Source: a virus
Virus record (IMG/VR): IMGVR_UViG_3300027754_000456
Location: 1-23,254 of that record
Strand: one strand, 5' to 3'
DNA: 23,254 nt
Position numbers and translations under genes: made by a program
In this document: positions 1-3,215 of the stretch, one piece after another
How the letters are laid out: every line of letters starts with the position of its first letter
How positions within the stretch are numbered: the first letter of the stretch is position 1
The notes under the pieces: generated by a model
The model's database searches: none
What the model was told of the DNA's origin: nothing
What the model saw: the letters and a program-made list of their open reading frames with translations, nothing else

Positions 1-279
1 GGGATCCTGCGCAGCTATCCACGCTTTTGACTCCTTGGTGCGACGATCGAAGGTGGACGGGTAAACGCTGAGCCTCTCCCTAAAGTTTGACGAATCAAAG
101 ATCATCGCGTCAAAGTTGCTGCCTAACTTCATTGCCGCTGTCGGCTCGAAAGGGGCGGTCTTTGAATGCAGGTAATGCTGCGGGGAACGCCTGAAGGCTT
201 TCAAGCTCGACTGTGAGACTCGATCGAGGGCGAAGTAGTCCACGTCGAGCATGTGCTGTATTCCGTTATCAACCTTCAC
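1..279 (-). CDS. RecE-like exonuclease, N-terminal part (runs off window)
   Basis: This frame is open from a GTG at 279 to the window edge (93 codons), so only the N-terminus is seen. Residues around YFALDRVSQSSLKAFRRSP, then HYLHSK, then AMKLGSNFDAMIFD, match the opening of RecE/PD-(D/E)XK phage exonucleases (the usual pattern is LSQSxLKxxxxSPxHY, then an AMxLGxxxHxxxLxP block). Such enzymes resect linear dsDNA so a partner annealing protein can load. Its partner is the recT-like gene just upstream, whose last 11 bases it overlaps. A GGAGG lies 6 bases before the GTG, inside recT, which supports this start; an in-frame ATG nine codons later is the alternative. The catalytic nuclease residues lie outside the window. 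The family call is from pattern recognition only. Confidence 0.75.
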   Translation of the reverse strand, partial: MKVDNGIQHMLDVDYFALDRVSQSSLKAFRRSPQHYLHSKTAPFEPTAAMKLGSNFDAMIFDSSNFRERLSVYPSTFDRRTKESKAWIAAQDP

Positions 280-1042
280 TTTGCACCTCCAAATTGATCA
301 CGGGGGTTGCTCCTGTCGTTCGGATGTCGGCAACCTCCTCGGTGCTCAACAACCCCTTGAGTGCATCGCCGAATTGATCACGGAGGGCAAACGTGCGAGC
401 GCGGAACTTTAGCATCCTTGCGGGGAATTGTTTCCAAGGGCCTTCTTTACCCCACAGGCCTGCGCTCTTGGCGTCGGCAACTGTAAACCTTACGAAGCTG
501 GGGGAGTAATCGCGGCGGTGAACAAAGACCGTCACACCGAAGTCGTCGGCAGTCTTGTTGAGTTTGGGTTGCATCTTGGCTAGTTCAATTCGGTCGGTTT
601 GAGCTAGGGACTCGGTTTTGTTTAAACAAAGAGCGCGAAAAAACGGATCCGTCTCTGCATTCGTTTCCATTTCCTCGAATGCCAGGAGTAGACCCGTGCC
701 TCGAACGATGGCGAGTTGGGCGTCACCGTAGATACTGGGCCTGCCGTTGATGATAGCGATGTTCTGGAGCGCAGACATCGGGGACATCCGCAACTCCAGA
801 CCCATCTGAATGGCAATTGCTATTGCCTGCGGGGTGTTGAGTCCTTTTGGAGCCAGTCCGCTTTGGTGGACGCATTGCGCGAAGCGAAAGAGGCTGTCAA
901 AGTCCGTGAACTGAACGCCCGTATTGCTCATGGCGATTGACTGCTTTACCGCCACGGTCACGGTGGAAGGCGGCGGCGGTGCAGGTAGGGCGTAGGATGT
1001 TGCTACCGTCGTTTGTTCGGTTTGGATATGTTCAGGGGTCAT
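269..1042 (-). CDS. recT: RecT-like single-strand annealing recombinase
   Basis: The protein has 257 residues. The region around residues 65-115 (FAQCVHQSGLAPKGLNTPQA, then IAIQMGLELRMSPMSALQNI, then INGRPSIYGDAQLAIVR) and the later block FTVADAKSAGLWGKEGPWKQ followed by FPARMLKFRARTFALRDQF are hallmarks of phage RecT-family proteins. These coat ssDNA and anneal complementary strands in exonuclease-coupled recombination. The first ~45 residues are low-complexity (Pro/Thr/Val-rich) and probably disordered. The gene is followed at once by a RecE-like exonuclease, the classical two-component recombinase pair, here with the annealer first. The start has no clear Shine-Dalgarno and follows a tiny membrane-protein gene by 4 bases, so translation may be coupled. 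The family call is strong; in vivo function is inferred. Confidence 0.87.
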   Translation of the reverse strand: MTPEHIQTEQTTVATSYALPAPPPPSTVTVAVKQSIAMSNTGVQFTDFDSLFRFAQCVHQSGLAPKGLNTPQAIAIAIQMGLELRMSPMSALQNIAIINGRPSIYGDAQLAIVRGTGLLLAFEEMETNAETDPFFRALCLNKTESLAQTDRIELAKMQPKLNKTADDFGVTVFVHRRDYSPSFVRFTVADAKSAGLWGKEGPWKQFPARMLKFRARTFALRDQFGDALKGLLSTEEVADIRTTGATPVINLEVQSEG

Positions 1043-1046
1043 AGAT

Positions 1047-1139
1047 TTAATTTCGGTTGGTGTTTTTGAAAATGTCGGCGAGGATCGTGGCGCAAAACAG
1101 GCCGAGGATCGCGACGATAATAATGCTCAAGGTGCTCAT
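1047..1139 (-). CDS. tiny putative single-pass membrane protein (30 aa)
   Basis: A 31-codon frame (ATG at 1139, TAA at 1047) encodes MSTLSIIIVAILGLFCATIL followed by ADIFKNTNRN: one hydrophobic segment of about 17-18 residues and a short polar, basic tail. Its ATG overlaps the TGA of the preceding gene in an ATGA-type junction, and recT starts 4 bases after its stop, so it fits tightly into the leftward operon. No function can be assigned. Small phage membrane peptides can be holin-like, superinfection-exclusion or toxin-like, but nothing here separates these. The tight spacing and clean hydrophobic profile are the only support. Confidence 0.5.
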   Translation of the reverse strand: MSTLSIIIVAILGLFCATILADIFKNTNRN

Positions 1140-1309
1140 GGTGTTTGTGTTTGAGTTTTGAGGAACGAGGTGATGATGTCGGTCACTCCGTGGCCGAGCT
1201 TTATTCCTCGGGCTTTAAAGTGACGGCGTAGGTCGGCGTGAACCGAGTTTGGCACTCGGATCACGGTTGTATTCTTTGAGCTGTGTTCGTTTTTGTCTGA
1301 GTTGTCCAT
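1136..1309 (-). CDS. small putative ribbon-helix-helix protein (57 aa)
   Basis: The frame runs from ATG 1309 to TGA 1136 and gives 57 residues. A polar N-terminus is followed by NTTVIRVPNSVHADLRRHF and then KARGIKLGHGVTDIITSFLK. A short beta strand (TTVIRVP) followed by two helices is the layout of Arc/CopG/ParD-type DNA-binding proteins, where the strand pairs in a dimer and reads DNA. The match is by secondary-structure pattern, not by a diagnostic motif. The gene is translationally linked to the tiny membrane-protein gene by an ATGA overlap. Its start is preceded by an A-rich tract (ACATTACAAAC) and no Shine-Dalgarno. It could be a local regulator of the leftward operon. Confidence 0.5.
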   Translation of the reverse strand: MDNSDKNEHSSKNTTVIRVPNSVHADLRRHFKARGIKLGHGVTDIITSFLKTQTQTP

Positions 1310-1330
1310 GTTTGTAATGTTTTCTTCTGA

Positions 1331-1378
1331 GCCGATTTAGGCGCAGACTTCCACGCCTCGAAAGGCGCGGCGTGTCTG
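1331..1378 (-). promoter_or_regulatory. intercistronic double hairpin (diverged third copy)
   Basis: In the gap between the stop at 1382 and the start at 1309, the minus-strand transcript can form a large hairpin: CAGAC at 1378-1374 pairs with GTCTG at 1348-1344, and ACGCC pairs with GGCGT further in, with a GGAA bulge. A short hairpin with GCC/GGC arms (1342-1331) lies nearer the next start. This is the same layout as the two related spacers at 2063-2126 and 2367-2430, though the sequence itself has diverged. Confidence 0.45.
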
Positions 1379-1381
1379 TGA

Positions 1382-2062
1382 CTAAACGGGAGGTTCTGCG
1401 GCTAACTTTAGCCCGAAAGAGTCCAGTTTCTCTTTGATTTCGTTCAATGTTTTTTTGCCGATGTTACGACTTCTCAAAAGCTCCTTTTCCGTTTTTGAGG
1501 TTAAATCTCCGATACACGATATTCCAAGGAAGCAATTCCACAAAACATGCATGGTTCGGTTGCTCAACTTAAGGTTTTCAATTGGCGTAAATATTGTTGG
1601 CGTGATGGTTGCCAAACAATACCTGAAAGCATTGAAACCAACAGAAGTGACGCTGTTGGGGATAACAACCCGAGTCAACCCCGAACACCCAGCAAATGCC
1701 CAATTCTTAATCTTTTTAACGGGCAAACCGCCAATAGTGGCAGGAATAATCAATTCACCCGTGGCTTTGGTGTCGCAAGTTTTTATCACGATACCACCAG
1801 CCTCCTGAGAGTAGGTCAGAACATTCAAAACGTATGCCGCTTGATCCTCGATTGCTTCGGTCAAAAGGGTTGCGCTAATCGTGAATGACCCTTGGTCAAT
1901 GCCAAAGGTTTCGCGGAACTTATATGCTGCCTCGTCGGCGGTAGTTTCGTCAACTGTCCATGCTTTTGACAAGTCGTTTGTGCTTTGCCAATCGTCCGAT
2001 TTAAAGTCATGGCGGGCGTAAGGGTGGGTGCAGTCTGGAATGATGATGATGTAAGTGTTCAT
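1382..2062 (-). CDS. fusion: small N-domain + LRR_5 repeat + RNA polymerase alpha-CTD-like domain
   Basis: The 226-residue protein has three visible parts. Residues 1-72 (MNTYIIIIP, then YARHDF, then KAWTV) form a domain duplicated in the gene at 2428-2766. Residues about 99-150 (GELIIPATIGGLPVKKI, AFAGCSGLTRVVIPNSVTSV) look like one to two BspA/LRR_5-type leucine-rich repeats. Residues about 161-222 (IENLKLSNR, then CIGDLTSKTEKELL, then NIGKKTLNEIKEKLDSFGL) closely resemble the helix-hairpin-helix C-terminal domain of RNA polymerase alpha, which contacts UP-element DNA and activators. R169, G202, K204 and E208 sit where E. coli alpha R265, G296, K298 and E302 sit; N268 is replaced by His and S299 by Thr, and there is a two-residue insertion before the first conserved GDL. 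The alpha N-terminal domains for assembly are absent. Role unknown: it could bind DNA, host activators or RNAP-associated factors. Domain assignment is by eye. Confidence 0.75.
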   Translation of the reverse strand: MNTYIIIIPDCTHPYARHDFKSDDWQSTNDLSKAWTVDETTADEAAYKFRETFGIDQGSFTISATLLTEAIEDQAAYVLNVLTYSQEAGGIVIKTCDTKATGELIIPATIGGLPVKKIKNWAFAGCSGLTRVVIPNSVTSVGFNAFRYCLATITPTIFTPIENLKLSNRTMHVLWNCFLGISCIGDLTSKTEKELLRSRNIGKKTLNEIKEKLDSFGLKLAAEPPV

Positions 2063-2126
2063 GTTCGTTTTTGTTTCGGCTAATTGCCGACCTCAACCCT
2101 CTGCGAAGGGCTGGCGTCGGGAATCA
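2063..2126 (-). promoter_or_regulatory. intercistronic double-hairpin leader, copy A
   Basis: This 64-base spacer, which includes the upstream stop codon, is 52/64 identical to the spacer at 2367-2430. On the minus strand it forms a 7-bp stem with a TCGCAG loop (2113-2094; one G-U pair) and then a 5-bp TCGGC/GCCGA stem (2090-2076). It ends with ACAAAAACGAAC directly before the ATG. The two copies differ at two stem pairs in a compensatory way, which argues that the RNA fold is maintained. Confidence 0.6.
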
Positions 2127-2366
2127 AACACCACATTTAAGCTGGCCGGGGAAAAGATAAACCGATCTTTTGCCGGAACGGATCCGGTAGCCGTCGCCTT
2201 CCTCTTTCAATAACCATTTGCCAGCGCGTTCCCATGCTGCCAAATGAACATTGTTAATAACCGTGGTGCGATAAGCCGTGGCATAATAAAGGTAACCGCC
2301 TTCCTTCAGAAGACTGATTGCGCCTGCAAGATTCTTTGGCCCTACTTCGTAAAATTTGTCGTTCAT
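2124..2366 (-). CDS. hypothetical protein (80 aa)
   Basis: I do not recognise this protein. It starts MNDKFYEVGPKNLAGAISLL, then reads KEGGYLYYATAYRTTVINNV, and ends with a basic, Tyr/Gly-containing stretch (YRIRSGKRSVYLFPGQLK). It appears to be a small soluble alpha/beta protein with no signal peptide, membrane segment or catalytic motif. It lies between two copies of the same double-hairpin spacer and so belongs to the cassette-like early operon. The ATG follows the A-rich tract ACAAAAACGAAT instead of a Shine-Dalgarno. Its function is unknown. Confidence 0.65.
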   Translation of the reverse strand: MNDKFYEVGPKNLAGAISLLKEGGYLYYATAYRTTVINNVHLAAWERAGKWLLKEEGDGYRIRSGKRSVYLFPGQLKCGV

Positions 2367-2430
2367 ATTCGTTTTTGTCTCGGCTGATTGCCGACTACAA
2401 CCTCCTGCGAGAGGTTGGTGTCGAGAATCA
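2367..2430 (-). promoter_or_regulatory. intercistronic double-hairpin leader, copy B
   Basis: This is the second copy of the 64-base spacer. It has a perfect 7-bp stem CAACCTC/GAGGTTG around the loop TCGCAG (minus-strand sense, 2417-2398) and a 5-bp TCGGC/GCCGA stem (2394-2380), followed by ACAAAAACGAAT and the ATG at 2366. The loop is identical to copy A while two adjacent stem pairs have swapped. It may act as a processing site, attenuator or translational control element. Confidence 0.6.
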
Positions 2431-2766
2431 AAACGCGCGGTAAAAACTTAGCTTGGTGTTGATGGCTTCAAGCAAAGGGATTGCGGTAAAATAATCGGTC
2501 AAAGCAATGTTGAAGGCTTTGTGAAACTTTTCAACGGCCTGTTTTTCGTTCGCAGCCTCAACCGTCCATGCCTGGGTCAAATAATCAGTGCTCTCCCATT
2601 CGTAAGATTGAAAGTCGTGGCGAGCATAAGACCCAGCGCAGCCTGGGATGATGATAATGTAAGTGTTCATGTTGTCTTGGAGCTTGGCGTCAGCGGTGTC
2701 CATTTCGGCAATCATTTCGTTGAGCGTAGCCTCTAAATAATCTCGGTTGCTGATTTCGTTTTTCAT
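2428..2766 (-). CDS. hypothetical protein sharing the duplicated MNTYIIIIP domain (112 aa)
   Basis: Residues 33 to about 90 (MNTYIIIIPGC, YARHDFQSYEWESTDYLTQ, AWTVEA, KFHKAF) are clearly homologous to residues 1-55 of the alpha-CTD fusion protein encoded at 1382-2062; the DNA around the internal ATG at 2670 is also nearly identical. A further 32-residue acidic helix-like N-terminus precedes it (start ATG 2766, after AACGAAACGAAC). The internal ATG at 2670 could therefore be an alternative or ancestral start. There is no LRR or alpha-CTD part; the protein ends in a short unrelated tail. The function of the shared domain is unknown. Duplication within the operon is the main information here. 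Confidence 0.65.
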   Translation of the reverse strand: MKNEISNRDYLEATLNEMIAEMDTADAKLQDNMNTYIIIIPGCAGSYARHDFQSYEWESTDYLTQAWTVEAANEKQAVEKFHKAFNIALTDYFTAIPLLEAINTKLSFYRAF

Positions 2767-2785
2767 GTTCGTTTCGTTTTAAAAA

Positions 2786-3166
2786 TTAAACTGCGGCCAG
2801 TTTGGCTGCTTTGGCTGCGGCCAAGGTTACGAGGAGGGCTTGGTAAACTGCTGCTTTGCGAGTTTTCTCCGCCGCATTGCGAATTTGATTTTCAAGGTTT
2901 TGGGCGGCTGCTGCTGCTTTCATCGAGGAAACTATGCAGCTAGCTGATTTGCGCGAGGCTTTGGCGTCTGCGGCGATGGCTGCGTCGCGCTCGGGGGTGC
3001 TGACTGAGGCTGCGAAAGCGGCGCGGGAGGCGAGCCAAGCAATCGCTTTTTTGTCACCGGCTGCTGCGCTCGCAGCCAGAGCGGCTTCGTCAGCGTCGAT
3101 CCGGCGATTGATCGCAAAAGCGATTTCTGAGTTTGTCCGGTTGTTTTGATTTAAGATTTCGTTCAT
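2786..3166 (-). CDS. alanine-rich helical hypothetical protein (126 aa)
   Basis: This is the first gene of the leftward arm. After a polar start (MNEILNQNNRTNSEIAFAIN) the protein is dominated by Ala, Lys, Arg and Asp, with runs such as LAASAAAGDKKAIAWLASRA and a terminal LAAAKAAKLAAV. This predicts long amphipathic helices and perhaps a nucleic-acid-binding or structural role, though low complexity makes family assignment unsafe. The ATG at 3166 follows GAACGAAAAAAAAT. The opposite strand is also open because of the GC-rich alanine codons, but the minus frame fits the operon and start context better. Confidence 0.6.
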   Translation of the reverse strand: MNEILNQNNRTNSEIAFAINRRIDADEAALAASAAAGDKKAIAWLASRAAFAASVSTPERDAAIAADAKASRKSASCIVSSMKAAAAAQNLENQIRNAAEKTRKAAVYQALLVTLAAAKAAKLAAV

Positions 3167-3215
3167 ATTTTTTTTCGTTCGCCGGAGGATTCATCCCTTC
3201 GACACCATTACTTTC

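Follow-up and report, generated by a model that had tools for sequence, protein, structure and literature searches.

What are the repeated spacers that separate several leftward-transcribed genes of this phage, and is it their RNA that matters? The window analyzed here is the whole 23,254 nt stretch of virus record IMGVR_UViG_3300027754_000456 (positions 1 to 23,254), which contains rightward head, packaging, and tail modules and a leftward operon (269-3166) with a RecT-like gene in last position. The window has no blastn match among named phages, and protein searches with the operon genes recovered one close relative. The Verrucomicrobia phage P8625 has a distantly related terminase (24% identity), and the host therefore probably, but not certainly, belongs to the Verrucomicrobia. 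Three junctions of the operon carry the elements considered here (A, B, and C), and these and the surrounding genes are as follows.

269 to 1042, minus strand: gene for a RecT-like ssDNA annealing protein, last in the leftward operon as far as it is visible
1136 to 1309, minus strand: 57-aa gene, downstream of hairpin C
1310 to 1335, minus strand: leader from hairpin C to the AUG of the 57-aa gene
1336 to 1386, minus strand: hairpin C, CAGAC/GUCUG and CCGCGCCU/AGGCGUGG, with the layout of A and B
1384 to 1382, minus strand: UAG stop codon in the foot of hairpin C
1382 to 2062, minus strand: 226-aa gene downstream of hairpin A; product with an MNTYIIII N-terminus, LRR_5, and an RNA polymerase alpha-CTD-like domain
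2063 to 2080, minus strand: leader from hairpin A to the AUG of the 226-aa gene (GCCGAAACAAAAACGAAC)
2081 to 2126, minus strand: hairpin A, consisting of P0, P1, P2, and a loop
2126 to 2122 and 2085 to 2081, minus strand: P0 of A, UGAUU/AAUUA
2120 to 2116 and 2091 to 2087, minus strand: P1 of A, CCGAC/GUCGG
2113 to 2107 and 2100 to 2094, minus strand: P2 of A, CAGCCCU/AGGGUUG, with the loop UCGCAG at 2106 to 2101
2124 to 2126, minus strand: UGA stop codon of gene 2124-2366, forming the 5' foot of hairpin A
2124 to 2366, minus strand: 80-aa gene between B and A, no function assigned
2367 to 2384, minus strand: leader from hairpin B to the AUG of the 80-aa gene (GCCGAGACAAAAACGAAU)
2385 to 2430, minus strand: hairpin B, with P0 UGAUU/AAUCA, P1 UCGAC/GUCGG, P2 CAACCUC/GAGGUUG, and the loop UCGCAG
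2428 to 2430, minus strand: UGA stop codon of gene 2428-2766, forming the 5' foot of hairpin B
2428 to 2766, minus strand: 112-aa gene upstream of B, sharing the MNTYIIII segment with gene 1382-2062

The preliminary description of this DNA had drawn attention to the spacers at 2063-2126 and 2367-2430, and what it reported of their primary sequence is fully reproduced on the minus strand. The two are identical, ungapped, at 52 of 64 positions, and the stems CAGCCCU-UCGCAG-AGGGUUG in A and CAACCUC-UCGCAG-GAGGUUG in B differ by a swap of two adjacent base pairs and by a G-U pair in one against an A-U pair in the other, around an identical loop. A second small stem, UCGGC/GCCGA, is likewise present in both spacers, and the two stems had been taken together as a double hairpin. 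Both can pair, but the small stem (P4, formed in A between GCCGA at 2080-2076 and UCGGC) reuses the 3' strand of P1, the GUCGG of CCGAC/GUCGG, and therefore full formation of one hairpin precludes that of the other. P0 (UGAUU/AAUYA) prolongs P1 to give a single long interrupted hairpin of 20-21 layers, predicted to be 4-8 kcal/mol better than the P4 alternative in A-type copies and about equal to it in C-type copies. We therefore rejected a pair of independent hairpins on account of the common P1 strand and of the five-copy evidence given below, and regard the small stem as an alternative to the long hairpin. The third spacer, earlier thought to repeat the layout with a different sequence, is in fact alignable with A and B over 1310-1384, although the model that scores C was built including it.

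Two further copies are present in contig IMGVR_UViG_3300033233_000150, the close relative, whose RecT is 94% identical to that of the window.

L061:2129-2191: A-type copy in the close relative
L061:3020-3090: C-type copy in the close relative

On the coding strand, each copy fills the gap between two cistrons, and in all five P0 starts on the first base of the stop codon of the upstream gene (UGA for the A-type and UAG for the C-type copies). From the hairpin end to the next AUG there are 18-30 nt, mostly A-rich and without a Shine-Dalgarno sequence, and with the foot on the stop codon and the leader reaching the start codon the elements thus fill their junctions exactly. The adjacent genes change while the spacers are kept, the A-type copy of the relative preceding a MKNEISNRD gene and those of the window an MNTYIIII gene and an 80-aa gene; this fits a function at the junction and not the regulation of one gene. 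The MNTYIIII segment itself is found in two copies in the window (2428-2766 and 1382-2062) versus one gene in the relative (L061 2192-3019). Other genes of the leftward operon (2428-2766 and RecT) have no long hairpin before their starts. Searches for more copies in IMG/VR with the exact pattern GTCGGCAATYAGCCGA gave 58 loci, near the chance expectation, with the close relative alone clearly real; relaxed hairpin patterns returned the same relative and nothing else, and models of the long hairpin gave no convincing match beyond the two phages. A Rfam scan assigned no family at gathering score to the window hairpins, and a riboswitch or other known Rfam family was dismissed on this ground.

When compared with dinucleotide shuffles, the three spacers fold more stably, with z values of −3.6, −4.3, and −3.5. 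They fall only in the lowest 0.7-1.9% of all 71-nt windows of the contig in GC-adjusted stability, so stability alone is unexceptional and the real evidence lies in the compensatory changes. In an alignment of the five copies with 17 modelled pairs (A4), the full P0-P1-P2 structure has 97.6% paired cells and double changes at eight of the 17 pairs, a level of covariation that none of 500 shuffles matches; sliding the strands by 1-3 columns lowers pairing to 25-46%. The inner stems alone are 100% paired, with five double-change pairs. The sample comprises five sequences from two phages, with A and B paralogous and kinship still present in the shuffles, and the number of independent changes is therefore small. 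An RNA element selected for its structure on the minus-strand transcript, as had been proposed, is borne out by this covariation and by the retention of pairing in the homologues of the related phage; it is a stop-codon-anchored long hairpin rather than a double hairpin.

Functionless duplication of spacers, to which the paralogy of A and B and the restriction of the element to two phages would be congenial, is extremely improbable given the compensatory changes and the exact stop-to-start fit. The spacers could instead provide homology for gene exchange through RecT-type annealing, with the hairpin as a secondary matter, and both the unlike gene content between spacers in the two phages and the presence of RecT in the same operon accord with this. 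However, exchange driven by homology would favour identity, whereas the stems differ and yet pair, and C has little P2 sequence in common with A and B; we consider such a recombination junction very unlikely. An attC-like or REP-like mobile repeat was considered by eye only; the hairpin copies occur in two related phages and all lie at gene junctions.

The two mutually exclusive pairings could constitute a bistable switch or attenuator, with the opposition of P1/P2 to P4 under selection and the state chosen by a ribosome at the stop codon. Either pairing can form in 5/5 copies and the stop codon does lie within the hairpin foot, but P4 is out of register between A and C, it is the poorer state by 4-8 kcal/mol in A-type copies and about equal in C-type copies, and neither state hides the AUG; a switch of this kind is highly improbable. 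The attenuation role put forward in the preliminary description finds no support, with no U-run, no terminator call, and an AUG and leader mostly unpaired in predicted ensembles. An intrinsic terminator was rejected on the first two of these points, the hairpin being followed by A-rich sequence instead, and sequestration of a Shine-Dalgarno sequence or AUG was rejected because there is no Shine-Dalgarno sequence and AUG and leader are largely open (mean unpaired probability 0.80-0.97, and 0.51 for B).

Our preferred reading, held tentatively and at slightly less than an even chance, is that the long hairpins are cis-acting intercistronic RNA elements that insulate or process the transcript of the leftward (RecT) operon. 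Such a hairpin would keep the leader of the next gene clear of upstream coding RNA, would make it harder for ribosomes that have terminated to drift on to the next start, and would likely be a site of RNase III-like processing or 3'-end stabilization, so that each cistron could be started and could decay independently. With a ribosome on the stop codon, P0 and P1 would melt, and UCGGC/GCCGA could then form until the ribosome leaves. The RNase III sites of phage T7 are long interrupted hairpins of about two helical turns between early cistrons, and the modelled window hairpins, with their 20-21 layers and likewise about two turns, would similarly place an interrupted helix of ~20 bp between cistrons. 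Shine-Dalgarno-like tetramers precede the long open reading frames of the window no more often than background (12% versus 11%), and an open leader should therefore matter. Prevotella initiates without Shine-Dalgarno sequences, and its translation was not inhibited by a hairpin of −9 kcal/mol placed at −21 (1.34x; PMC3155529). Gene junctions of distant RecT phages at which two hairpins precede a leader and an AUG also count in favour of insulation. Counting against it are the small number of phages with the long hairpin (two), the few independent changes among paralogous copies, the operon genes that start without a hairpin, and the unexceptional predicted stability.

The search among RecT relatives revealed a second element, a short leader hairpin, RUC-GRA-GGS-AAUYAA-SCC-CGA-GAY, followed by an A-rich stretch and an AUG. 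Among 33 distinct sequences, a model of 3 bp, a 3x3 loop, and 3 bp has its six pairs 90% formed, with double changes in five of the six and an observed covariation reached by none of 500 shuffles. One strict pattern matches 66 IMG/VR stretches and shows the family in about 50 distinct phage loci; 257 Gb of sequence from prokaryote genomes gave a single, chance-like match lacking the leader context. The loci (L083-L155 and L157-L219) lie at early promoters of RecT-carrying phages. A sigma70-like hexamer pair with a 17-nt spacer lies upstream, and the predicted transcript start would fall at the hairpin. Of 48 distinct scored instances, 46 are situated 11-22 nt before an AUG opening a reading frame of at least 40 aa; such an AUG lies within 45 nt of 24% of random positions. 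Phage P8625 gave no convincing match to either the long or the leader hairpin, eight leader-hairpin loci scanned against Rfam had no match at gathering scores, and the literature yielded no usable account of a similar motif or of put sites. The leader hairpin may be an undescribed element and is a candidate new RNA family.

The AANYAA hexaloop is constant in the distant RecT phages while the stem pairs vary, which suggests sequence-specific recognition; a dimeric DNA-binding protein could in principle also account for covariation in an inverted repeat. The question this raises for the window is whether its hairpins are translational operators, that is, fixed-loop sites before a start codon where an RNA-binding protein of the phage or the host would lower or raise expression of the gene. 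The UCGCAG loop common to A and B, the leader loop that persists as its stem changes, and the tight placement of 46/48 leader instances ahead of their AUG are all as expected for an operator. However, the apical loop of A and B is not retained in the A copy of the relative or in C, the AAUYA that recurs pairs with UGAUU in the preferred structure, and gene co-occurrence in the motif-bearing phages brought no candidate binding protein to the fore, and we regard this reading as unlikely. The coat-protein operator of MS2/R17 has an ANYA loop and a bulged A, and the hairpin of the RecT relatives, in which the loop reads A-ANYA-A and the inner stem has purines on its 5' side, resembles it sufficiently to provide a lead, although these phages have no RNA-phage coat gene.

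In several RecT phages another copy of the leader hairpin lies between genes 1 and 2 and immediately follows a terminator-like hairpin, giving the order hairpin, hairpin, leader, AUG. The terminator-like hairpin, CCCCGC..GCGGGGTTTT with four T, was seen between genes 1 and 2 in L094, L107, L123, L090, L108, L091, L102, L142, L105, and L143. It adjoins the second leader hairpin with no room for a promoter, and read-through is therefore implied. This arrangement, and the position of the first copy where early transcripts are predicted to begin, would suit antitermination in the manner of lambda nut or HK022 put, where a hairpin in early RNA modifies the polymerase so that later terminators are read through. 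Antitermination does not require tight spacing to an AUG, however, and the window hairpins have no U-run, lie deep inside the operon, and lack a Rfam match; we think this role quite unlikely for them.

Both types combine a hairpin, an A-rich leader, and the AUG of an early gene, but the leader hairpin differs in being short, with a 3x3 internal loop and an AANYAA hexaloop, and in lying at predicted 5' ends by promoters. The 3' part of A, B, and the A-type copy of the relative, GUC.GGCAAUCA.GCC.GAGACAAAAAC, resembles it, and under R2, a leader-hairpin model to which no window sequence contributed, these copies score 12-22 bits: 12-13 for A and B and 21.8 for the copy in the relative, the highest in 579 kb of contigs that are otherwise unrelated, where the next is 15.8. 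In the favoured fold of the window type, AAUYA pairs with UGAUU and is not in a loop. The resemblance is weak and no more than suggestive of homology. A weak possible further copy precedes the first gene of the leftward operon.

3167 to 3204, minus strand: possible copy D, GUCGAAGGG-AUGAAU-CCUCCGGC, then A-rich sequence and AUG

It scores 13.8 bits with R2 (E 0.06 in the window), and by eye TTGCAC lies 17 nt before GAAAGT, the spacing seen in the promoters of the relatives, and the distance from promoter to hairpin agrees with theirs. A broader proposal, in which intercistronic hairpins anchored on stop codons and AANYAA leader hairpins related to them form an undescribed class that governs Shine-Dalgarno-independent early expression by way of a phage or host factor acting in trans, is conceivable but doubtful.

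The nearest described analogue appears to be the SAS/ESAS system of cluster K mycobacteriophages, phage-specific repeats present in several copies (Pope et al. 2011, PMC3203893). The likeness lies in multiple copies, in one orientation, before the starts of non-structural genes of different families, and in an ESAS inverted repeat upstream of a start-proximal element. However, the SAS core is a Shine-Dalgarno sequence located 3-7 bp from the start, and the ESAS repeats show no covariation at the RNA level, their authors favouring DNA binding (PMC3203893), whereas the window copies, similarly oriented upstream of starts, end 18-30 nt away, lack a Shine-Dalgarno sequence, and covary. The two are unrelated in sequence, and the SAS consensus GGGATAGGAGCCC with its AGGAG core is absent from the window spacers. 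The role of SAS/ESAS itself is still unproven (PMC12699233).

In operons that lack Shine-Dalgarno sequences, the way in which genes are kept apart and started is poorly understood, and these hairpins bear on that question as compact, testable modules of a stop-codon-anchored hairpin followed by an open A-rich leader. In the wider leader-hairpin family, the conserved loop calls for a binding partner. An otherwise unrelated viral contig (L041:1442-1485) also has a hairpin, GUCGGCAAUCAGCCGA, with an A-rich stretch before an AUG and an R2 score of 15.8 bits, and may be a chance match or a further case.

The predicted product of 1382-2062 on the minus strand unites the MNTYIIII segment, an LRR_5 stretch, and a match to the RNA polymerase alpha C-terminal domain (PF03118, 2.5e-14) in one chain, and may be a phage mimic of the host alpha-CTD.
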